A stretch of 9,757 bases of DNA from Dehalococcoidia bacterium UBA3254 (GTDB taxonomy: Bacteria > Chloroflexota > Dehalococcoidia > Dehalococcoidales > UBA3254). Below are positions 1-9,757 of the stretch, piece by piece (positions within the stretch are counted from its first letter, which is position 1; each line of letters begins with the position of its first letter). Location: positions 1 to 9,757 of the forward strand of contig DEUU01000274.1 of the NCBI GenBank assembly GCA_002362735.1, written 5' to 3'. The notes beneath the pieces are model-generated. The model worked only from the letters and a program-made list of their open reading frames with translations. It searched no databases and was not told the origin of the DNA. Both the position numbers and the translations under genes were made by a program.

Positions 1-859
1 ACAGAATCCTCCCCATGCCAATATGGACTGTCCCCAATCGGCCACCATCCCTTCTTGTCCCGCGAATGACGGGGGGAATGATGTGGCTGGTACCGATACC
101 CAGCTCCGTGATATTATTAGCGTTCTCATCAGCATTGAGCATGCCGCGTATTTTCTCGACATCTTCCCTAGATCCTGATACGTCCACCACTCTACCGGCT
201 TTTACAATATACTTCAAAGGTTGTCTCAGAACGAAACCTAACTGCAGAACACAAACATCTGCAACGATAGTCCCTTCTGCGGTGCCTTCCACAGGGGTAA
301 TCGCTGATTCAGCATAATCCGGCAATACGCCTGTTTCTTGAGAATTGGGATAAGCCGCTAAAGATGCTCTTCCGGCAACGCTCATGGTGATATCCGTTCC
401 TGAAGGACTGGTTACTCTGGCAATACCGGATCTGGATAAAAGGGCTTTAAGATTTTCAGATCGATTCTTAATAATTTCAAGATCTTTTAAAGAAACGCCG
501 CGTTTCAGATCATCCAGAGGGATGTTGCGGTTGAGCATATAACATCTAACACCTGCATTGCGGGCTTCCTTTTGCGCAGTAGTATGACCAATCTCTATTT
601 TATCCTCAATTGCAAGAAAAACATTGACATTTTTCATCGCTGCGGCAACCGCAGCCGGGGGTTCAGTGTGGGCAATATCTGCTGGAATAATGATAGTATG
701 TATAGGGACAGCACCGACAGAATTTAGCACATTCAAGAAAAGCTCACCTAACCAAACAGACCCACCTTCATCCTCGGTAATCACCAAAGCATTTTCACCG
801 CTTTTAACCTGCATGCAATTTTCAATAATCGAACGTAAGCCATTCATAAGCTCAAACAT
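1..859 (-). CDS. M29 aminopeptidase / NicX-like metalloprotein (partial, 3' end missing)
   Basis: The reading frame starts at ATG 859-857, with GGAGGG five bases upstream, and runs off the left edge after 286 codons without a stop. The protein resembles the M29 aminopeptidase-T superfamily, which also contains 2,5-dihydroxypyridine 5,6-dioxygenase (NicX); members are usually about 340-410 residues, so roughly the last 50-120 are missing. Family-like patches are VEGTAEG (190-196), TELGIGT (251-257) and TVHIGMG (277-283). Glu252 and His279 fall where the family places metal ligands; the final His/Asp ligand motif would lie beyond the edge. It is the last visible gene of the leftward arm, 75 bases after the dehydrogenase, and is probably co-transcribed with it. 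The family includes peptidases, a ring-cleaving dioxygenase and many uncharacterised proteins of anaerobes. An oxygenase role is unlikely beside anaerobic-type enzymes, so a hydrolase is the safer guess. Family confidence is moderate; the substrate is unknown. Confidence 0.75.
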   Translation of the reverse strand, partial: MFELMNGLRSIIENCMQVKSGENALVITEDEGGSVWLGELFLNVLNSVGAVPIHTIIIPADIAHTEPPAAVAAAMKNVNVFLAIEDKIEIGHTTAQKEARNAGVRCYMLNRNIPLDDLKRGVSLKDLEIIKNRSENLKALLSRSGIARVTSPSGTDITMSVAGRASLAAYPNSQETGVLPDYAESAITPVEGTAEGTIVADVCVLQLGFVLRQPLKYIVKAGRVVDVSGSREDVEKIRGMLNADENANNITELGIGTSHIIPPVIRGTRRDGGRLGTVHIGMGRIL

Positions 860-934: not shown

Positions 935-1849
935 CTATTCAACTTCTATGTCAGGGATGCGGACCTCGATACCGCCCGCGCGTTCTTCCTGAATTAACAT
1001 AGCTGCACAGCCATCTTTGTCTCCCCAACCCCGATTAACAGCGGTGACATAATCTTGCCAGACACTATCGGCTATTGGCATAGGGACATGGAATTCCCGA
1101 CCTAAGGAAGTTGCCAGTTCCTGATCTTTAAAAGCTATATTCAAAGACATCGAAGGCTTATCAAAGCCACCCCGTAAATATACCTTTGGTAAAAGCATGG
1201 TGAAGGTAAGCCCTCTTCCAACGGCGCCATTTCTGATGGCTTGCCACAATACCCGTGGTTCGACTCCTGCCTTAACTCCCAGTGTAAGGCATTCTGCGGT
1301 AATTGCATTCAAGCCTGTCGAAATACAATTATGCATCAGCTTGCAGATACTGCCACAGCCAATCCCACCAGTATAAGTTACTTTGTCACCCATCTTTTCC
1401 AGTATCGGTTTGCAACTATTAAATACTGTCTCATCTCCACCCACCATGAAAGTGAGTTTCCCTGTTCGGGCACCTTCCGGGCCTCCGCTGACAGGAGCGT
1501 CCATCACAGCTACCCCTTTTTCCTTAAAAACCTGGTAGATACGCCGGATCAAAGAAGGAGAACTGGTGGAAAGGTCAATATATATCATTCCAGGATGGAT
1601 CCCATGGATAATACCTTCTGACCCCATGGCTACAGATTCTACTTCACGTGGTCCCGGCAAGGAGGTAAATACAATATCGCTAGCAGATGCTGCCTCTTTG
1701 GGGGAATTGACGGGAGTTGCTCCAGATTTCACTAGGGATTCTATTGACTCCTTGTGAATATCGTAGACAGATAAATAATACCCGCCTTTAATAAGATTAG
1801 CCGCCATTCCCCTACCCATATTCCCCAATCCAATGAAACCTATTATCAT
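935..1849 (-). CDS. NAD(P)-dependent beta-hydroxyacid dehydrogenase (3-hydroxyisobutyrate dehydrogenase family)
   Basis: This 304-residue protein reversibly oxidises a beta-hydroxyacid to its semialdehyde or keto form with NAD(P). All family signatures are visible. The N-terminal Rossmann motif GFIGLGNMG is at residues 4-12, the substrate loop DAPVSGG at 117-123, and the catalytic segment GIGCGSICKLMHN at 162-174, giving Lys170 as catalytic residue and Asn174 as its partner. The later KDQELA motif is at 241-246. Length is typical for the family (about 290-300), with a slightly long C-terminal tail. The start is ATG 1849, with GGAG seven bases upstream; an out-of-frame ATG lies just before it. 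Relatives include tartronate semialdehyde reductase and 2-(hydroxymethyl)glutarate dehydrogenase of nicotinate fermentation, so the substrate cannot be read from sequence alone. It lies between the MarR gene and the M29-like gene on the same strand. Confidence 0.93.
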   Translation of the reverse strand: MIIGFIGLGNMGRGMAANLIKGGYYLSVYDIHKESIESLVKSGATPVNSPKEAASASDIVFTSLPGPREVESVAMGSEGIIHGIHPGMIYIDLSTSSPSLIRRIYQVFKEKGVAVMDAPVSGGPEGARTGKLTFMVGGDETVFNSCKPILEKMGDKVTYTGGIGCGSICKLMHNCISTGLNAITAECLTLGVKAGVEPRVLWQAIRNGAVGRGLTFTMLLPKVYLRGGFDKPSMSLNIAFKDQELATSLGREFHVPMPIADSVWQDYVTAVNRGWGDKDGCAAMLIQEERAGGIEVRIPDIEVE

Positions 1850-1969: not shown

Positions 1970-2434
1970 CTATTGTTGGTTTACCATAGCTTTGATTCTG
2001 ATCTTATCCAGGTACAACTTAAATCGTTGCTTCTCAGTATCCGTCAAAGCAGACATGCAATTTGTAATAGACTTTTCTTTTATGGAATATTTGTATAATT
2101 TACGTCCTTCAGGTGTGAGTGCCACTCGGATCATATTCTTTCTGGGGAGATCATTGATTTTCTCTATAAGTCCTCTTTTTTCCATCCGGTCCAGTAATTG
2201 TGAAATAGAATGGATATCTAATAATAGCTGTCTGCTGATCTCAGTAGGAGTAACACGGTCATTGGCCTCGTGGACAACGAATATCACTGCCGATTCGGGG
2301 ATAGAAATCCCAAGAGTTCTTAATTCTTTTTGGCGGGCTTTGCTTATTGCCATATAAGTCCTGCGGAACCATAACCAGGTATCCAGGTTAGGATTCTTGG
2401 GCGAAATGTATTTTTTTTCTAATGGTTTTATCAA
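1970..2434 (-). CDS. MarR-family transcriptional regulator
   Basis: This 154-residue cytoplasmic DNA-binding protein is predicted to act as a ligand-responsive dimeric repressor. Helical dimerisation segments flank a winged helix-turn-helix at about residues 45-112. The helix-turn-helix covers roughly 61-88 (TPTEISRQL, then SQLLDRMEKRGLIEK), and the wing DLPRKNMIRVALTPEG at 95-110 has the family's basic tip followed by LTPEG. Length is normal for MarR. The start is a TTG at 2434-2432, chosen because AGGTGGTG (2445-2452) lies ten bases upstream and no in-frame ATG is nearer; the GTGs inside that site are in another frame. It heads the leftward arm and faces the mutase operon across a 251-base AT-rich region, the classic position for a MarR protein that controls both itself and the divergent operon. 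The effector is probably the imported acid or a pathway intermediate (inference). Confidence 0.92.
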   Translation of the reverse strand: MIKPLEKKYISPKNPNLDTWLWFRRTYMAISKARQKELRTLGISIPESAVIFVVHEANDRVTPTEISRQLLLDIHSISQLLDRMEKRGLIEKINDLPRKNMIRVALTPEGRKLYKYSIKEKSITNCMSALTDTEKQRFKLYLDKIRIKAMVNQQ

Positions 2435-2685: not shown

Positions 2686-3102
2686 TTGCAATCAAAAAAT
2701 ATAATCATAGGGACCATCGGCCAGGATGCTCACATGATTGGCCAATTTATTATCTGGCGCAGCTTAAAGGAAGCGGGTTTTAATGCCATCAGCCTGGGGG
2801 CTTGTGTGGGACAGGATGACTTTATTAATGCTGCTATCGAAACGAAAGCGGATGCCATCCTGGTATCCTCCCTTTATGGAATGGGATTATTCGATTGTGA
2901 AGGACTCCGGGATAAATGCATCGAAGCCGGATTAGAAAATGTCCTGCTATATGCCGGAGGTCGATTAACTACGGGAGTAATGGGTTGGGAGGAAATACTG
3001 AAAAGATACAAGGACATGGGTTTTGACCGGGTTTATCCCCCGGGGACTTTACCACCCCAGGTGATTACCGATTTAAAAACTGACTTAAAAATAGCGGATT
3101 AA
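2686..3102 (+). CDS. glmS: Glutamate mutase-type B12-binding subunit (S / sigma component)
   Basis: This 138-residue cobalamin-binding Rossmann-like protein supplies adenosylcobalamin to the catalytic E subunit in a radical 1,2-rearrangement. The base-off/His-on signature DxHxxG is complete: Asp14, His16 (lower cobalt ligand) and Gly19, in GTIGQDAHMIG. The other cobalamin-contact motifs are VSSLYG (60-65), GG at 91-92 and DRVYPPGT (114-121). The stretch DFINAAIETKAD (45-56) and the C-terminal third closely follow clostridial glutamate mutase S subunits as I recall them, and the length matches (about 137). The start is TTG, fixed by the ribosome site and the His16 position. The E-subunit gene follows after 11 bases, so the two are co-translated. 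The symbol denotes the mutase subunit, not glucosamine-6-phosphate synthase or mismatch-repair MutS. The B12-binding role is near certain; glutamate as substrate is not. Confidence 0.93.
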   Translation: MQSKNIIIGTIGQDAHMIGQFIIWRSLKEAGFNAISLGACVGQDDFINAAIETKADAILVSSLYGMGLFDCEGLRDKCIEAGLENVLLYAGGRLTTGVMGWEEILKRYKDMGFDRVYPPGTLPPQVITDLKTDLKIAD

Positions 3103-3113
3103 GGGAGATCACA

Positions 3114-4562
3114 ATGGAAGTATCAAGCAAACGGTGGAGCGAAGAGAAACTTTTCGAAATGCGCAAAGAGGTACTCAGAGGATGGCCAACAGCTAACGAG
3201 GTCGATCTCAAAGAAGCCATAGAATACCGCAGGACGATACCATCTGAAAGAAATAAGGTAGATCTCAACCGGAAAGTGCTGATCACCGGAAAACCTTTTG
3301 TTGAAAAAACCGTAGGACGGACCACCATTGAAGAGCAAATTGAACATTCTCAAGTGCTGGTTGAAGCCGGAGTGGATGTGATAGATATTTTCACGGATAC
3401 CTATACCCGTAAAAACCAGTTTAAGAAAGCCGAAGCGGGAATCATTGAAAGCAAGAAAGAAGGGCGTTCACTACTTAATGGTTATCCTATAGTTAACCAT
3501 GGAGTTAAAGAATCACGGAAAGTTATCGAGTCTGTTGATGTCCCTACACGCATCTGGAGTGGTTGTGACGAAGACCCCCGTTTAATCCAGGAAATCTCTC
3601 TGGCAGCGGGGTTTACGCAAGTCGGGTTTAGCAACATTATTGATCTAATTGCTCATTCGAGGGATTACCCCCTGGACTTAAGGATCCGTAATGATCAGTA
3701 CTGTACCCGGCTGGCATCTTATTATGTTGAACAAGGTTTTTCTATTGACTTGTTTGCACCCAGTGGTCTTCATGGCTACGATCCACCGGATATGAAAGCG
3801 GCGGTACTTATTCCTACGGTTCTGCTCGCGGCTGAGCAGGGAGTAAAGGACATTTCAGTTAGCTTTCTATCGACTGTGAACCTGAATCAAATGGTAGCCG
3901 CTTTGAGGGTGATTCGTAAACTGCTAAGGGAATATCTGGATAGATTTGGCCACCCTGATGTCAATATAAACCTGGGATTTGGTACCTGGCATGGTGATTG
4001 GCCACTGGACCCTTATTTAGCTGCTGCGGTTAACGCCTGGGATGTCAGCATAGCTTTGCTGGCTGGAGTAGATGGTCTCTGGCTCAAATCTATTGGTGAA
4101 GCCGCAGGAATCCCGGCCAGGGAGTCAGATATTCCAGCCATAAAAATAGCCAAGAAATTAATCGATGTCATCGGGAGGCAGCGTTTAGACGAAAGCGAGG
4201 AGCTCAAGCTTGAAGAGCACATGATGACCATGGCTGTAAAAGCCATAGTGGATAAAATGCTGGACTTAGGAGATGGCGATGTCGCTAGAGGCATGATCAG
4301 GGCAGTTGAAGCGGGTGTTATCGATACTACGCTATCACCCTGGATTTATTTAGCCCGGAAAGTCCTTGAGGTTAGAGATATCAATGGCGCTATCCGTTAC
4401 GTTGACCATGGTAATATTCCCTTGCCGAAGGAAGTTGTCGAGTACCATCGCGAGAAGATCGCGGCAAGAGAAAAAAAGGATGGCGTAAAAGCGGGGATTG
4501 AAATGCTTATTCAGGATGTAACCTGCGTATCCAGAGACATAATTAAAGGTTACAAATATTAA
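3114..4562 (+). CDS. glmE: Glutamate mutase-type catalytic subunit (E / epsilon), divergent; substrate uncertain
   Basis: This 482-residue TIM-barrel subunit should pair with the preceding S protein as an adenosylcobalamin mutase. Its length matches clostridial GlmE (483). Shared landmarks include RGWPTANEVDL (22-32), DTYTRKNQF (95-103), EGRSLLNGYPIVNHGVK (116-132), DQYCTRL (194-200), LLAAEQGVK (237-245), KSIGEAAGIP (325-334) and LDLGDGDVA (383-391). Lys325 and Glu329 align with the residues that touch the cofactor ribose. By eye, Arg69 and Arg99 match two Arg of the clostridial glutamate 'arginine claw' (the first only with a gap). The third Arg position is Trp148, and the segment carrying Glu171, Tyr177 and Tyr181 is remodelled around residues 168-185. 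The substrate may therefore differ from glutamate. Start: ATG with GGGAG seven bases upstream. No reactivase gene (glmL) separates the subunit genes, unlike the clostridial order. Sure of the family, unsure of the reaction. Confidence 0.88.
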   Translation: MEVSSKRWSEEKLFEMRKEVLRGWPTANEVDLKEAIEYRRTIPSERNKVDLNRKVLITGKPFVEKTVGRTTIEEQIEHSQVLVEAGVDVIDIFTDTYTRKNQFKKAEAGIIESKKEGRSLLNGYPIVNHGVKESRKVIESVDVPTRIWSGCDEDPRLIQEISLAAGFTQVGFSNIIDLIAHSRDYPLDLRIRNDQYCTRLASYYVEQGFSIDLFAPSGLHGYDPPDMKAAVLIPTVLLAAEQGVKDISVSFLSTVNLNQMVAALRVIRKLLREYLDRFGHPDVNINLGFGTWHGDWPLDPYLAAAVNAWDVSIALLAGVDGLWLKSIGEAAGIPARESDIPAIKIAKKLIDVIGRQRLDESEELKLEEHMMTMAVKAIVDKMLDLGDGDVARGMIRAVEAGVIDTTLSPWIYLARKVLEVRDINGAIRYVDHGNIPLPKEVVEYHREKIAAREKKDGVKAGIEMLIQDVTCVSRDIIKGYKY

Positions 4563-4591: not shown

Positions 4592-5962
4592 ATGATAATT
4601 GAAGATTGGGCAAGGCATATTGTTCAAACTGATTTTGATGCTCTGGATGAGAATACCATTGAGCAAGCTAAATATCGAATCATCGATATTATAGGTTGCG
4701 CCATAGGTGGGGCCAATACTCCAGGCTGCTCGATAGTGAGAGACCTGATACAAGAATGGGGAGGGAAAGAGGAGGCTACTATCTTAGTGCATGGAATAAA
4801 AGCTCCGGCACACAATGCAGCCTGGTTAAATTGCGTCATGGCGAGATCTTTCGACTATGGAGTGTTGATACCCTTTATCGGTGACAGACAGGTCGTTAAT
4901 CATATCAGTGAAACAACGGTTCCCACGGCTGTCACTGTGGCCGAGTGGAAGCATGCTGGCGGCAAGGAACTGATTACAGCCCTGGTATTGGGTGATGATA
5001 TTACCACTCGATTGACCGCAGGTTCAAATTATACGGCGGCGGTGAGTTGGGACAGTGTGGGTACAACTAACAGATTTGGAACGACCACCATTGCCGGTAA
5101 GCTACTGGGGTTGTCTGTAAAGAAAGTAGTAAACGCATTTGGGATCGTAGTGAACCAGCTGGCGGGCAGCTTCCAGGTTATGCAGGATGGGGTGCATGCT
5201 TTTAAATTAACTCAAGGGCTGTCGGCCCGGGATGGCATTATAGCAGCGGAACTAGCGGATAAAGGATTTTTGGGGATAAAAGACCCTCTACTGAGTAAAT
5301 ATGGATATTTTGCCCTTTACTGTAAAGATTATGATACGGACATCCTGACCCGGGACCTGGGTAAGAAATTTTATGCGGATATGACCTTTAAACCTTATCC
5401 CGGGTGCAGGTTTACCCATCCGATTACGGATTGTGCGTTAGATCTAGTTAGATCTTATGATATAAAAGCCGAGGATATTGAGAGAGTGAGCATTAATGTG
5501 GCCCCTTCTCACCTGGATTCTCCGTTGAATCAACCTTTTAAAATAGGAGAATTTCCCCAGGGTGACGCGCTTTTCAGCCCTCGGTACGCGGTGTCCAGCG
5601 CTCTTGTGAGAAAAAATGTTAAACCCGAATATTTTACTGAGGAATATATACGCGATCCTAAAGTGCTTGATCTTACTGCGAAAGTAAATATGATAGGAAC
5701 TATGCCGTCCTTCATGCTGGAAGCAGCTGAAGTAACGGTCACGATGAAGGATGGGAGAGAACTTACAAAATCTGTTGATACAGCTAAGGCTCATCCGCTT
5801 AAGAAGCCTCTGACTCAGAATGAGATAGAAGATAAGTTCTGGGGCAATGTGACTTTCTCCAGGACAGTCTCACAAAAAAACGCTGAAACAGCATTAACAA
5901 TGCTTAAGAATTTGGAAGAAGTCGATGATATCAATAAGGTGATAAGATTGCTGGTTAGTTAA
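4592..5962 (+). CDS. MmgE/PrpD-family protein (2-methylcitrate dehydratase / aconitate decarboxylase-like)
   Basis: This 456-residue cytoplasmic enzyme belongs to the MmgE/PrpD superfamily, whose members dehydrate 2-methylcitrate, decarboxylate cis-aconitate or epimerise iminodisuccinate. Family features are DIIGCAIGG (32-40), AWLNCVMARSFDYG with Asp88 (77-90), HISETTVPTAVTVAE with His104 (104-118), GKLLGLS (169-175), HAFKLTQGLSARDGIIAAELA with Lys205 (202-222) and FKPYPGCRFTH with Lys267, Arg273 and His276 (266-276). Length is typical (about 450-480). Asp88, His104, Lys205 and His276 fit the active-site set I recall from aconitate decarboxylase. The position usually held by a second His (159 there) appears to be Asp154. 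The start is ATG with GGAGG eight bases upstream, 29 bases after the mutase E gene, so it is translationally linked. Here it probably acts on the mutase product or its deaminated or unsaturated derivative, for example by (de)hydration or isomerisation (inference). The exact reaction is unknown. Confidence 0.9.
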   Translation: MIIEDWARHIVQTDFDALDENTIEQAKYRIIDIIGCAIGGANTPGCSIVRDLIQEWGGKEEATILVHGIKAPAHNAAWLNCVMARSFDYGVLIPFIGDRQVVNHISETTVPTAVTVAEWKHAGGKELITALVLGDDITTRLTAGSNYTAAVSWDSVGTTNRFGTTTIAGKLLGLSVKKVVNAFGIVVNQLAGSFQVMQDGVHAFKLTQGLSARDGIIAAELADKGFLGIKDPLLSKYGYFALYCKDYDTDILTRDLGKKFYADMTFKPYPGCRFTHPITDCALDLVRSYDIKAEDIERVSINVAPSHLDSPLNQPFKIGEFPQGDALFSPRYAVSSALVRKNVKPEYFTEEYIRDPKVLDLTAKVNMIGTMPSFMLEAAEVTVTMKDGRELTKSVDTAKAHPLKKPLTQNEIEDKFWGNVTFSRTVSQKNAETALTMLKNLEEVDDINKVIRLLVS

Positions 5963-6067: not shown

Positions 6068-7255
6068 ATGAACTTCGGATTTAATGAGTTAAAAAACCTC
6101 GTTATTAATAGAGGATTATGCACTGTCTGTGGAACTTGCATTGGTGTTTGCCCCAGGGATTGTTTGGAATTAACTTATCAGGAAGAGGAACCAGTACCCG
6201 AGTTGAAGGGCAAGTGTAATTCGTGCGGGATTTGTTATAAGGCATGCCCGGGAAGTGATGTTCCTCTCATGGATCTTGAGAAATTCTGCTTCGGTAAGGT
6301 AAGAACAAGCAAGCCTGATGATTTGGGAATATTTAACTTTAGTGGTATGGGTTATGCTACAGATAAGATAATGCGGCATTCGGGTGCCAGTGGAGGAGTA
6401 GCCACTGCTCTGCTAACCTATGGATTGGAAAAAGGACTAATTGATTGTGCTATTGTAGCGGGATTTTCTAAAGACCAACCGTGGCTTACTGAGGCTAAAA
6501 TAGCTACCACTTCAAAAGAATTGGCTGAGTCAGCTCAGTCAAAATATGCTGCAGTAGCTATTAATTCCGTATTAAGCGAAGCGGTGCGAAGGGGTTATCA
6601 AAGGATAGCCGTCATTGGCTGTCCGTGCCACATCCATGCCATCAGAAAAATTGAATGCCAGGGTCTTGTACCCGAGATTACCAAAAAAATAACGATTCTT
6701 CTGGGGTTGTTCTGTGGTGCAAATTGGCATTTCGAAGGGACCAGGCATGTTCTCTACGAGAATTGTAATATACCGGATCTGAAATCTATTACTCTTCTAC
6801 AGTATCGAGGCCGAGGCAAGGATGGGTCATCTAAATTCGTAGTGGAATTAAAAAATGGAGAACGAAAAGAGGTACCTAAATTCGACGCGGTCGTAATGAG
6901 AATGAATCATTTCACTAGGGAAAGATGTGTTATGTGTATTGACTGGTCGGCCGAATTATCTGACATCTCAATAGCAGACTACTGGGGACCAGTAAAATCT
7001 GACGAGGGAGGGTTTTCATCTATTTTAATACGCACAACTAAGGGGACTGATTGGTGTCAGGGAGCACAAAATTCGGGGTATTTGTTAATGAAAGAGTCGC
7101 CGACCGAATACCTTATTAATAGCTTAGGATTTGAAAATAAAAAACATGGAAATGTTTTTCGTCTAATGCAGCGACAGCGATATGGATGGCCTACGCCAAA
7201 TTATCATTACTCTTCAAGTCATAACCCCATACGATCAGGAAGGAGTGTCAAATAA
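6068..7255 (+). CDS. FrhB/FdhB-like iron-sulfur flavoprotein (coenzyme F420 hydrogenase/dehydrogenase beta family)
   Basis: This 395-residue protein has an N-terminal double ferredoxin domain joined to FrhB_FdhB N and C domains. Cluster 1 ligands are Cys18, 21, 24 and 28; cluster 2 ligands are Cys50, 53, 56 and 60, both CxxCxxCxxxCP. The beta-subunit domain shows SGASGGVATALLTYGLEKGLID (105-126), the GCPCH motif (184-188) with CHIHAIRKI after it, GLFCG (213-217) and CVMCIDWSAELSDISIADYWG (287-307). Relatives hold FAD plus a 4Fe-4S cluster and either move electrons between ferredoxin and F420 or reduce a C=C bond with ferredoxin (BciB, HCAR). With no F420 or hydrogenase partners visible, a ferredoxin-dependent reduction of a pathway intermediate is the likelier role (inference). 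Start: ATG with AAGGAG five bases upstream. The preceding 105-base gap holds no convincing promoter or terminator, so it probably belongs to the mutase operon. Confidence 0.9.
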   Translation: MNFGFNELKNLVINRGLCTVCGTCIGVCPRDCLELTYQEEEPVPELKGKCNSCGICYKACPGSDVPLMDLEKFCFGKVRTSKPDDLGIFNFSGMGYATDKIMRHSGASGGVATALLTYGLEKGLIDCAIVAGFSKDQPWLTEAKIATTSKELAESAQSKYAAVAINSVLSEAVRRGYQRIAVIGCPCHIHAIRKIECQGLVPEITKKITILLGLFCGANWHFEGTRHVLYENCNIPDLKSITLLQYRGRGKDGSSKFVVELKNGERKEVPKFDAVVMRMNHFTRERCVMCIDWSAELSDISIADYWGPVKSDEGGFSSILIRTTKGTDWCQGAQNSGYLLMKESPTEYLINSLGFENKKHGNVFRLMQRQRYGWPTPNYHYSSSHNPIRSGRSVK

Positions 7256-7443: not shown

Positions 7444-8631
7444 ATGAAAAACCTACGATCAGGCATTTTGTTGGCGAGTCTCATGTTAATCCTTGTTTTG
7501 GTCTCTATGTCCTTCCTTGCCGGCTGCAGTTCCCCAACTCCTTCTACTACCGCCGTTCCTCCCAAAACCACTACTACTGCACCGACCACTACGGCTGCTC
7601 CACCACCAACGACCTCTGCTCCAGCACCGGCTACCTCTGCTCCGGTTACCTCCGCAGCGGCCAAACCGATTGTTCTGAAGGTTGCGCCGACCACGCTCCA
7701 GGCTTCTCCAAATCTTGGAATGACTCTAACCATTTCAACCCAGCTAAAATTAATAGAAAATCGTACTAACGGTCGGGTTAAATTTGATATCTACTGGGGT
7801 CAAACCCTGGCCTCAGCTACCGAGCTCAGTGGGGCCATCAACTCCGGTCTGGCAGATATGGCTATCCTGCGGCCTTATGGTGAACCTGGTAAGCTCCCTC
7901 TCGCATCCGTCGGTGAGATGCCTGGCATCAGTGAAGATCAATGGGCCCTTCTTTGGGCTTACTACGATTTATTCAGGCAAGATCCCATACTCTCCGAATT
8001 GGCGAAATATAAAATGAAACCGCTTTGGGTGATTTTGACCCAAAATATAGACATCATATCCAGAACCCCGATTGCTTCACTGGCTGACTTGAAAGGAAAA
8101 AAGATAGCCGCCGGGGGTATTGCTGCTGATGAGATAAAGACTCTGGGCGGTGTGCCTGTTTCCATGACCCCAACCGAACAGGGCGAGGGTATGCGGTTGG
8201 GTACAATTGAAGGCGCCGCTGCTCCCCTCGATGCATCTTATTCCTTCAAATTTTATGATTCAGGCAAATATATTACCAAGATGTACCTGGGTCCGCGCAT
8301 ACAACCATTTGTTATTAATCAAGATGTCTGGAATAGTTTGCCAGCTGATATCCAGAAAGTCTTTAACGATTCAATGCAGGACATGGTAAATTTAACCTAT
8401 ACCACGATCATGAAAGATAGTAATGAACCTATCATGAAAGAAATGACCGCAGCCGGGGTACAATTTCTTAACCTCAGCGCGGCAGATATGGCTCAAGTTA
8501 AGAGCGTGCAGGCTGCCTATGCAGATAGCTGGGCATCCAAACAAACCGCGTCGGCTGATGCCAAGAAAGCCCTGGATGATTATCGTGCTTTTGCAGCCAA
8601 GTATGAAAAAACCAGCCCCTACAAGAAATAA
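7444..8631 (+). CDS. dctP: TRAP transporter solute-binding lipoprotein, DctP family
   Basis: This 395-residue extracytoplasmic protein captures an organic acid for the downstream DctQM permease. Residues 1-27 are a lipoprotein signal peptide: basic start, hydrophobic 8-26, lipobox LAGC with Cys28 as lipidation site. A low-complexity Thr/Pro/Ala/Ser linker (29-73) tethers the binding domain, which starts near residue 76. DctP features include LKLIENRTNGRVKFDIYWGQTL (101-122), ELSGAINSGLADMA (127-140), SLADLKGKKI (212-221), GGVPVSMTPTEQGEGMRLGTIEGAAAP (235-261) and the C-terminal helix pair. The GxKIR Arg that binds the substrate carboxylate in typical DctP proteins appears to be Ala222, hinting at altered ligand binding. 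The lipid anchor suggests a cell with no outer membrane, or an anchored Gram-negative variant. It has the strongest ribosome site of the cluster, and a hairpin separates it from the permease gene. The ligand is probably the pathway substrate (inference). Confidence 0.93.
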   Translation: MKNLRSGILLASLMLILVLVSMSFLAGCSSPTPSTTAVPPKTTTTAPTTTAAPPPTTSAPAPATSAPVTSAAAKPIVLKVAPTTLQASPNLGMTLTISTQLKLIENRTNGRVKFDIYWGQTLASATELSGAINSGLADMAILRPYGEPGKLPLASVGEMPGISEDQWALLWAYYDLFRQDPILSELAKYKMKPLWVILTQNIDIISRTPIASLADLKGKKIAAGGIAADEIKTLGGVPVSMTPTEQGEGMRLGTIEGAAAPLDASYSFKFYDSGKYITKMYLGPRIQPFVINQDVWNSLPADIQKVFNDSMQDMVNLTYTTIMKDSNEPIMKEMTAAGVQFLNLSAADMAQVKSVQAAYADSWASKQTASADAKKALDDYRAFAAKYEKTSPYKK

Positions 8632-8769: not shown

Positions 8770-9757
8770 ATGGAAGAAACAAAAAATATCTCGTCTAATA
8801 GAAACTCAATGCTAAGGATATACCTGAACGTCCTTGAAAAGCTGGAACGATGGGCTATCTATTTATCTGTCATCATGATTTTCATGATGATGATATTAAC
8901 CTCCCTGGACACCTTTTTACGAGATGTCTTTAACAACCCTATCGACGGGGTTTATGAATTACATACCATGATGATGGTCGGCATTTTGTATCTGGGGCTG
9001 TCGTATGCTCAATCCAGGCGAACTCATATCCGGATGGACGTCTTATCTTCACGGATGAACTCGGGCAACCAGGCGCTGTTGCAGCTGCTAGGTGATGCTG
9101 TTTTTCTCTTTATTGCCGCCGTAATTTGCTGGCGAATGGGGGCAGAGACCTGGGTTGCCTGGGTGACCAAGGACTTTCTGGCCGGGGTAGTGCATTTTCC
9201 ATTATGGCCAGCCAAACTGGCGATTACCCTGGGAACAGCCCTGCTCAGCTTGCGTCTGATTACCGATATTGTCCGCAATCCAGTATGGTTTACCAGGCCA
9301 GATATAAGCGCGCGGCGGCATTATTTGAATATTGCGATCGTTCTGGTAGTACTCATATTCTTAATAGGCATAACTTTATTTATCAAAAACTTGCATTTAG
9401 GTCCCACAACTACTGGATGGAGTGTCCTTTGCCTATTTATCATATTGCTATTTATCGGTCTGCCGGTCGCTCCTTCAATGGCCATTATTGGGATCCTGGG
9501 CATCTGGATTATGTCCGGGAATGGGGCAGCTCTGCAAGTCATGGGAACGGTACCCTTCAATGCTTCCGCAAACTATGCGATGACGGTAATGCCTCTGTTT
9601 ATTGTTATGGGAACCTTTGCCGGTTTGGCTGGATTTGCTGAAAGTGGCTTTGACCTTGCTAAAAGCTGGCTGGTGGGGATTAAAGGGGGGATCGTCCACG
9701 CTACCATCGTTGGGTCCACCATTTTTGCCGCGGCTACAGGCAGTGGGGCAGCCTCCT
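8770..9757 (+). CDS. dctQM: Fused TRAP transporter permease DctQ-DctM (partial, 3' end missing)
   Basis: The frame starts at ATG 8770 (AGGA five bases upstream) and stays open for 329 codons to the right edge. Residues 1-175 are a DctQ small permease: four hydrophobic segments (about 28-47, 62-80, 104-122, 148-165) with family patches DTFLRDVFNNPIDGVYELHTMM (47-68) and THIRMDVL (85-92). A further membrane segment at 186-204 joins it to a DctM large permease beginning near 217, with FIGLPVAPSMAIIGILG (228-244), MPLFIVMGTFAGLAGFAESGFDLA (274-297) and GIKGGIVHATIVGSTIFAAATGSGAAS (303-329). Separate DctM proteins are about 425 residues, so most of DctM (about 300 residues) lies outside. DctQM fusions are a known TRAP subtype; the large subunit moves substrate by an elevator mechanism driven by sodium. 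It follows dctP by 138 bases with the hairpin between them. Confidence 0.93.
   Translation, partial: MEETKNISSNRNSMLRIYLNVLEKLERWAIYLSVIMIFMMMILTSLDTFLRDVFNNPIDGVYELHTMMMVGILYLGLSYAQSRRTHIRMDVLSSRMNSGNQALLQLLGDAVFLFIAAVICWRMGAETWVAWVTKDFLAGVVHFPLWPAKLAITLGTALLSLRLITDIVRNPVWFTRPDISARRHYLNIAIVLVVLIFLIGITLFIKNLHLGPTTTGWSVLCLFIILLFIGLPVAPSMAIIGILGIWIMSGNGAALQVMGTVPFNASANYAMTVMPLFIVMGTFAGLAGFAESGFDLAKSWLVGIKGGIVHATIVGSTIFAAATGSGAAS

Follow-up and report, generated by a model that had tools for sequence, protein, structure and literature searches.

A glutamate mutase-like B12 enzyme of a Dehalococcoidia bacterium with a rebuilt substrate pocket, probably serving another acid

To our knowledge, few carbon-skeleton mutase reactions depend on vitamin B12, and the free-acid branch comprises those of glutamate and 2-methyleneglutarate. 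The 2-methyleneglutarate mutase of Eubacterium barkeri (EC 5.4.99.4) is a single chain. Glutamate mutase of Clostridium cochlearium (GlmES, EC 5.4.99.1; PDB 1i9c and 6h9e) is built from two subunits, a B12-binding S subunit with a DxHxxG motif and a catalytic E subunit. As described for GlmE in PMC10947579, an arginine claw consists of R66, R149, and R100; the migrating glycyl half of the substrate is gripped by R66, R149, and E171, the acrylate half is bound through R100 and Y177, and backbone carbonyls, those of G68 and N123, contribute to holding the adenosyl group. In a 2009 survey, E. barkeri was the only source of 2-methyleneglutarate mutase (PMC2667541). Here we examine a 9,757-nucleotide stretch of contig DEUU01000274.1 from Dehalococcoidia bacterium UBA3254 (the window), in which a GlmE-like gene lies between genes for a GlmS-like subunit and an MmgE/PrpD-family protein. 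A sequence-only reading of the GlmE-like gene had proposed that its product keeps the B12 contacts, has lost part of the glutamate-binding site, and is a mutase for a different acid. With a probability of roughly 0.6, we propose that the two subunits would form an adenosylcobalamin (AdoCbl)-dependent carbon-skeleton mutase of GlmES build that acts on an acid other than glutamate, most likely a dicarboxylate lacking an alpha-amino group (of the hydroxy, oxo, or methylene type). In support of this reading, the upper claw and E171 are lost, the pocket has acquired conserved residues of its own, the sequences form a clade apart from canonical GlmE, the gene partners differ, and nothing points to decay.

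The GlmE-like nature of the 482-residue product was borne out, with phmmer (E value of 5e-97 against 6h9e_B) and PF06368 (365.6 bits) in agreement. PF06368 was the sole domain found in a Pfam scan of the E subunit; membership among the acyl-CoA mutases was rejected because PF01642 (MM_CoA_mutase) had no match, and the methylmalonyl-CoA mutase family shared 12 to 15% identity with the window E subunit in a fold comparison. The S subunit carries the DxHxxG motif, scores above the NCBIfam cutoff for the methylaspartate mutase S subunit (TIGR01501, 162.8 against 135.8 bits), and matches 1i9c_A among solved structures with an E value of 1.5e-47. The pair shares with GlmES its two-subunit build and the fold of the E subunit (root mean square deviation of 1.2 Å), but the window E subunit is only 38% identical to GlmE, scores 371 bits against the 390.1-bit cutoff of the curated E-subunit equivalog TIGR01503, and has a PrpD partner. 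We consider the pair probably a GlmES-like working mutase that is not to be filed as glutamate mutase, because the window E subunit lacks the full claw and falls below the curated cutoff.

Residue correspondences were taken from phmmer and MAFFT alignments. On the cofactor side, N123, K326, and E330 of GlmE are matched by N122, K325, and E329, and in the claw R100 is matched by R99, so that Arg99, Lys325, and Glu329 are kept as the sequence-only reading had stated. The roles of K326 and E330 (cofactor ribose contacts in that reading), H291, and Y181 are ones that we assume here and that lie outside the structural description cited above. The three claw positions read T66, R99, and W148 or S149, leaving one claw arginine of three (R100) kept by position. 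Arg69 had been counted as a further claw arginine; however, GlmE R66 falls on Thr66 and the window's R69 on Val69, a register fixed by Gly68 (kept in 86 of 87 aligned rows), so R69 is not a claw arginine by position. R149 and H150, previously placed on Trp148 and Ser149, indeed have no arginine or histidine partner, although the exact partners depend on the alignment (Trp148 by phmmer or Ser149 by MAFFT for R149, and Ser149 or Gly150 for H150). The placement of H291 on Thr291 did not survive, as phmmer puts H291 on Gly290 and Thr291 on Gln292.

The segment holding E171, Y177, and Y181 in GlmE is replaced by VGFSNIIDLIAHS, as reported, with G171 in place of the amine-binding E171 and H181 at Y181, but the statement that no acidic residue remains there was mistaken, since D177 stands at the acrylate carboxylate-binding Y177. 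In a structure model, a helix spans residues 175 to 181 and separates D177 from H181 by a single turn. Proper alignment thus gives no arginine at the third claw place and no Glu or Tyr equivalents, with Asp177 present. Overall, the window E subunit differs from GlmE in lacking R66, R149, H150, E171, Y177, and Y181 and in having R69, D177, H181, and W296. Judged from the alignments, the residue loss is real and the earlier observation as a whole is partly confirmed, with two residues misread. The whole glycyl grip has been lost and the acrylate-side arginine retained; R99 very probably continues to bind a carboxylate, and the basic residue at 69 may replace R66 from three residues on. Because E171 is gone, ammonium would be an unlikely part of the substrate.

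The replacements extend well beyond the window. We gathered 163 E sequences, comprising 120 hits from searches together with genes from the loci and the typed GlmE reference, and kept 87 representatives, dropping those more than 72% identical to one already kept; because the window served as the query for this sampling, residue counts over the 87 aligned rows are not natural frequencies. An unrooted branch with a Shimodaira-Hasegawa-like approximate likelihood ratio test (SH-aLRT) value of 100 splits the rows into 31 with canonical GlmE (group A) and 56 with the window (group B, called clade B on the presumption that the root lies outside it). The same split received support of 100/100 in a careful tree built from 32 selected rows, which also rejected a clade uniting the window with canonical GlmE (approximately unbiased test, p-AU of 3.2e-6). 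In clade B, R149, H150, Y177, and Y181 are found in 0/56 rows, E171 in 1/56, and R66 in 3/56, with R66 and R149 both gone in 53. What replaces them is itself conserved: position 69 is basic in 49 of the 56 rows, position 177 is D, E, or Q in 48, H181 occurs in 51, and W297 occurs in 52. R/K100 and K/R326 are retained in all 56 rows and E330 in 55. An independent genome scan found one identical 18-residue signature in 71/71 canonical loci with a called E gene, all keeping R149, Y177, and Y181; the 10 canonical rows of the alignment were defined by six of the scored residues, and their 10/10 there holds by construction.

Because these replacements are common to a whole clade, we regard them as more than chance; on this comparison the pocket is rebuilt with conserved D/E/Q177, H181, basic 69, and W297, and a picture of mere loss is incomplete. 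The earlier proposal that the mutase acts on a different acid agrees with these findings and is partly supported, the change of substrate being what we infer, and it is plausible on clade-wide evidence rather than on a single alignment made by eye. Raw pN/pS ratios (nonsynonymous to synonymous differences) of clade-B pairs point to purifying selection, at 0.25 to 0.37 in five closer pairs and 0.40 to 0.47 in three pairs with the window, in which synonymous sites are near saturation. Beyond canonical GlmE, group A holds 21 rows, of which 17 keep R66, 15 keep R149, 1 keeps E171, and none keeps H150; in three (P0095, P0109, and P0116), both upper arginines are missing. Retuning of the GlmE fold seems to have occurred repeatedly, with the window in the largest retuned group of this sample. 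Single-chain fusions occur in both orders, S-E in P0034 (663 amino acids [aa]) and E-S in L119 (3808-5892, 695 aa). Among the open-access literature matches listed, no paper was recognized from its title and abstract opening as dealing with clade B. We regard the window mutase as a variant of the glutamate mutase kind.

GlmE-like genes are rare in the phylum and class of genome G001 but expanded where present. Matches to alignment A1 at 1e-60, canonical ones included, occurred in 6/400 sampled genomes of the phylum, and matches at 1e-100 occurred in 8/393 genomes of the class. Five clade-B copies lie in G001 (L112 to L116) and three in G002, while G423 has seven E genes (L125 to L128 and L134 to L136), all noncanonical with R66 and R149 kept. 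Seven and five noncanonical E genes per genome (G423 and G001) would seem to exceed the need of one glutamate pathway. Among the 120 matches listed, Chloroflexota were the commonest of those named by organism, and Betaproteobacteria/Burkholderiales, Bradyrhizobium, Pelotomaculum, and a few canonical Clostridium and Cetobacterium records were also present. A scan of viral contigs returned no relative, and when nine relatives were used to scan genome contigs, most of the matches were canonical GlmE.

Gene neighborhoods set the noncanonical loci apart from the canonical ones. Within 6 kb, GlmL/MutL was found in 64/71 canonical loci, GlmS in 62/71, and PrpD in 0/71, whereas PrpD was found in 7 of 25 noncanonical loci, the window counted and two further loci left out in which the E gene was not called. 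In four of these seven, PrpD forms one tight operon with the mutase, arranged as S-E-PrpD in the window (29 bp from the E stop codon to PrpD), S-E-S-E-PrpD-MutL in L111 (30-bp gap), PrpD-S-E-MutL in L120 (PrpD 24 bp before S), and E-S-PrpD in L121 (1-bp gap). As a control for abundance, G003 has three PrpD genes and G427 has two, and three of these five are in mutase operons. The GlmL genes of L111 and L120 pass the GlmL equivalog cutoff, as expected for working AdoCbl mutases. A single clade of MmgE/PrpD-linked E genes, which the sequence-only reading had raised as a matter for phylogeny, was rejected by tree inspection, as such genes occur on both the A and B sides.

Other neighbors vary among loci. 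In G001, four of the five mutase copies (L112, L113, L115, and L116) have UbiD-type decarboxylase genes no more than 6 kb away, and type III CoA-transferases recur in G002 (one tested, the others recognized by eye). L111 has a fumarate-reductase-like pair and CoA-transferases nearby, and its operon (8607-13825 in G427) encodes two different mutases, the first E subunit keeping R66 and R149 and having lost E171, Y177, and Y181, and the second belonging to clade B with 50% identity to the window E subunit; this suggests two successive skeleton rearrangements. In L122 (3788-19834 in G095), a clade-B S-E-GlmL set lies near a TctA-type transporter, a phosphoenolpyruvate (PEP)-mutase/isocitrate-lyase-family gene, a DUF6282 protein, and two PrpD genes, surroundings that resemble a dicarboxylate catabolic island.

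NCBIfam and Pfam scans annotated nine open reading frames in the window (Table 1). The closest solved relatives of the MmgE/PrpD protein are cis-aconitate decarboxylases. The FrhB/FdhB-type gene perhaps shares a transcript with the genes upstream, and the DctP-type protein of the tripartite ATP-independent periplasmic (TRAP) transporter would point to carboxylate uptake; the small and large permease subunits of this transporter, DctQ and DctM, are fused in a single frame. A functional tie of the beta-hydroxyacid dehydrogenase to the mutase is uncertain. The M29-like protein had no solved relative at an E value below 0.27, and neither its gene nor the TRAP solute-binding protein gave a hint of the substrate. 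An Rfam scan gave no cobalamin riboswitch or other match in the window at the gathering score, and promoter-like sites were only at chance level. Methylaspartase was absent from the annotations of the nine window reading frames, canonical loci not having been searched for it.

Table 1. Genes of the window and selected residues of its E subunit
Feature	Position	Strand	Remarks
M29-like protein	2-859	-	Weak Pfam match only, 22.4 bits, under cutoff of 27
Beta-hydroxyacid dehydrogenase	935..1849	-	Tartronate semialdehyde reductase/2-hydroxymethylglutarate/3-hydroxyisobutyrate dehydrogenase type
MarR regulator	1970..2434	-	PF12802; divergent from S-E
GlmS-like B12-binding S (sigma) subunit	2686..3102	+	138 aa; called from a TTG start; DAHMIG motif at residue 14
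GlmE-like catalytic E (epsilon) subunit	3114..4562	+	482 aa; noncanonical substrate pocket
Arg69	3318..3320	+	Opposite GlmE Val69, not Arg66; basic in 49/56 clade-B rows
Arg99	3408..3410	+	GlmE Arg100; lower claw, kept
Asn122	3477..3479	+	GlmE Asn123
Trp148-Ser149	3555..3560	+	In place of GlmE Arg149 (upper claw)
VGFSNIIDLIAHS, residues 170-182	3621..3659	+	Glu171 to Gly, Tyr177 to Asp177, Tyr181 to His181; helix 175-181 in model
Lys325 to Glu329	4086..4100	+	Lys325/Glu329 are GlmE Lys326/Glu330, kept
MmgE/PrpD-family protein	4592..5962	+	456 aa; PF03972 and PF19305; starts 29 bp past E stop codon
FrhB/FdhB-type protein with ferredoxin domain	6068..7255	+	PF04432/PF04422/PF00037
TRAP transporter DctP solute-binding protein	7444..8631	+	PF03480; TRAP_S1 above cutoff
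TRAP DctQ-DctM fusion	8770..9756	+	PF04290 and PF06808; truncated by window end

In the proposed mechanism, AdoCbl would be split homolytically between the S and E subunits as in GlmES, and the 5'-deoxyadenosyl radical would abstract a substrate hydrogen, followed by a 1,2-shift and return of the hydrogen. The nonmigrating part would be held by its carboxylate on R99, with D177 and H181 in place of the tyrosines, and the migrating group, lacking ammonium, would be held by R69 and neutral residues as it shifts to the neighboring carbon. The product, now branched, would pass to the adjacent MmgE/PrpD enzyme for dehydration, isomerization, or epimerization next to a carboxylate, a step that would stand where canonical glutamate fermentation uses methylaspartase, and the substrate may enter the cell through the TRAP carboxylate importer.

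For the acid, two concrete candidate reactions can be named, each of low probability. Migration of an acrylate moiety as in 2-methyleneglutarate mutase, giving a 3-methylitaconate-type product to be hydrated or isomerized by PrpD, would share with the E. barkeri enzyme a non-amino dicarboxylate chemistry. Such a reaction is in keeping with the loss of amino-binding E171 beside a kept R100 and with the surroundings of L122, which resemble what we take to be the lyase end of nicotinate fermentation. The 2-hydroxymethylglutarate dehydrogenase 3cky is the second-best solved relative of the window's beta-hydroxyacid dehydrogenase, but at 175.1 bits it comes just behind tartronate semialdehyde reductase (177.8 bits) in a broad family, and the nine annotated reading frames include no serine-dehydratase-like, methylitaconate-isomerase, or dimethylmalate-lyase gene; we hold this candidate to be improbable. 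Similarly unlikely is a hydroxy-acid mutase, for example one converting 2-hydroxyglutarate to 3-methylmalate with PrpD dehydrating the product to mesaconate, an amino-free twin of the methylaspartate pathway. PrpD relatives dehydrate 2-methylcitrate, and the loss of E171 and the PrpD gene in the window operon, against none in the canonical loci, would suit such a route, yet an alpha-carboxylate would need the upper claw that 53 of the 56 clade-B rows have given up.

We think it quite unlikely that the enzyme has remained a glutamate mutase despite its unusual pocket. The shared fold, the S-subunit model match, and two clade-B members (P0008 and P0045) above the E-subunit cutoff speak for it, but the window E subunit itself falls short of that cutoff, R149, Y177, and Y181 are absent throughout clade B yet invariant in the canonical loci, and the gene neighborhood differs. 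Several points nonetheless weigh against the preferred reading. Glutamate might be gripped by other residues, R69 standing in for R66 and R146, which precedes the R149 place by two or three residues, for R149; side-chain positions come from alignment, and no assayed clade-B member was found. R146 is not a conserved substitute, however, because Arg occurs within the loose span 146-152 in only 6/56 clade-B rows, the window among them. The PrpD contrast was drawn over 6 kb by BLAST at 1e-8 with one PrpD query, and 24 of the 71 canonical loci are flanked by less than 6 kb on one or both sides. PrpD nearness was rejected as evidence in G001 and G423 because they carry 78 and 47 PrpD genes and nearness there is uninformative, with about 0.8 and 0.9 matches expected within 6 kb and PrpD seen at 1/5 and 3/7 loci. 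PrpD also pairs with claw-retaining E subunits (L121, L126, and L128), and no other member was seen to have the window's set of dehydrogenase, M29-like, and FrhB genes beside it. Of the 12 loci of clade B whose E gene was called, 4 (L111, L118, L120, and L122) have GlmL within 6 kb and 7 have a separate S gene at that distance, S being fused to E in L119; L112, L113, L114, and L116, all in G001, have neither GlmL nor S in that span and, without an S of their own, would have to share that of L115 or another. Decay to a noncatalytic copy would account for the several missing substrate residues, but the frame is open, the S-E junction is tightly spaced with a Shine-Dalgarno-like GGGAG, the B12 and radical residues are retained, the replacements are conserved clade-wide, and relatives are under purifying selection, making it very improbable.

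A GlmES-built mutase for another acid remains the reading that we prefer. We give about even odds that clade B is a large unrecognized family of free-acid B12 carbon-skeleton mutases, with at least one substrate outside the known list, that diversified through rebuilding of the GlmE pocket and is present in three to five copies in some genomes. Because four of nine noncanonical E sequences scanned pass the methylaspartate mutase model TIGR01503 (P0008, P0045, P0101, and P0111), genome-based claims of glutamate fermentation that draw on an E gene alone are unsafe. Residues 69, 177, 181, and 297 are named positions for testing, and the consistently rebuilt pocket of the clade points to at least one further reaction of this kind in uncultured Chloroflexota and other bacteria.
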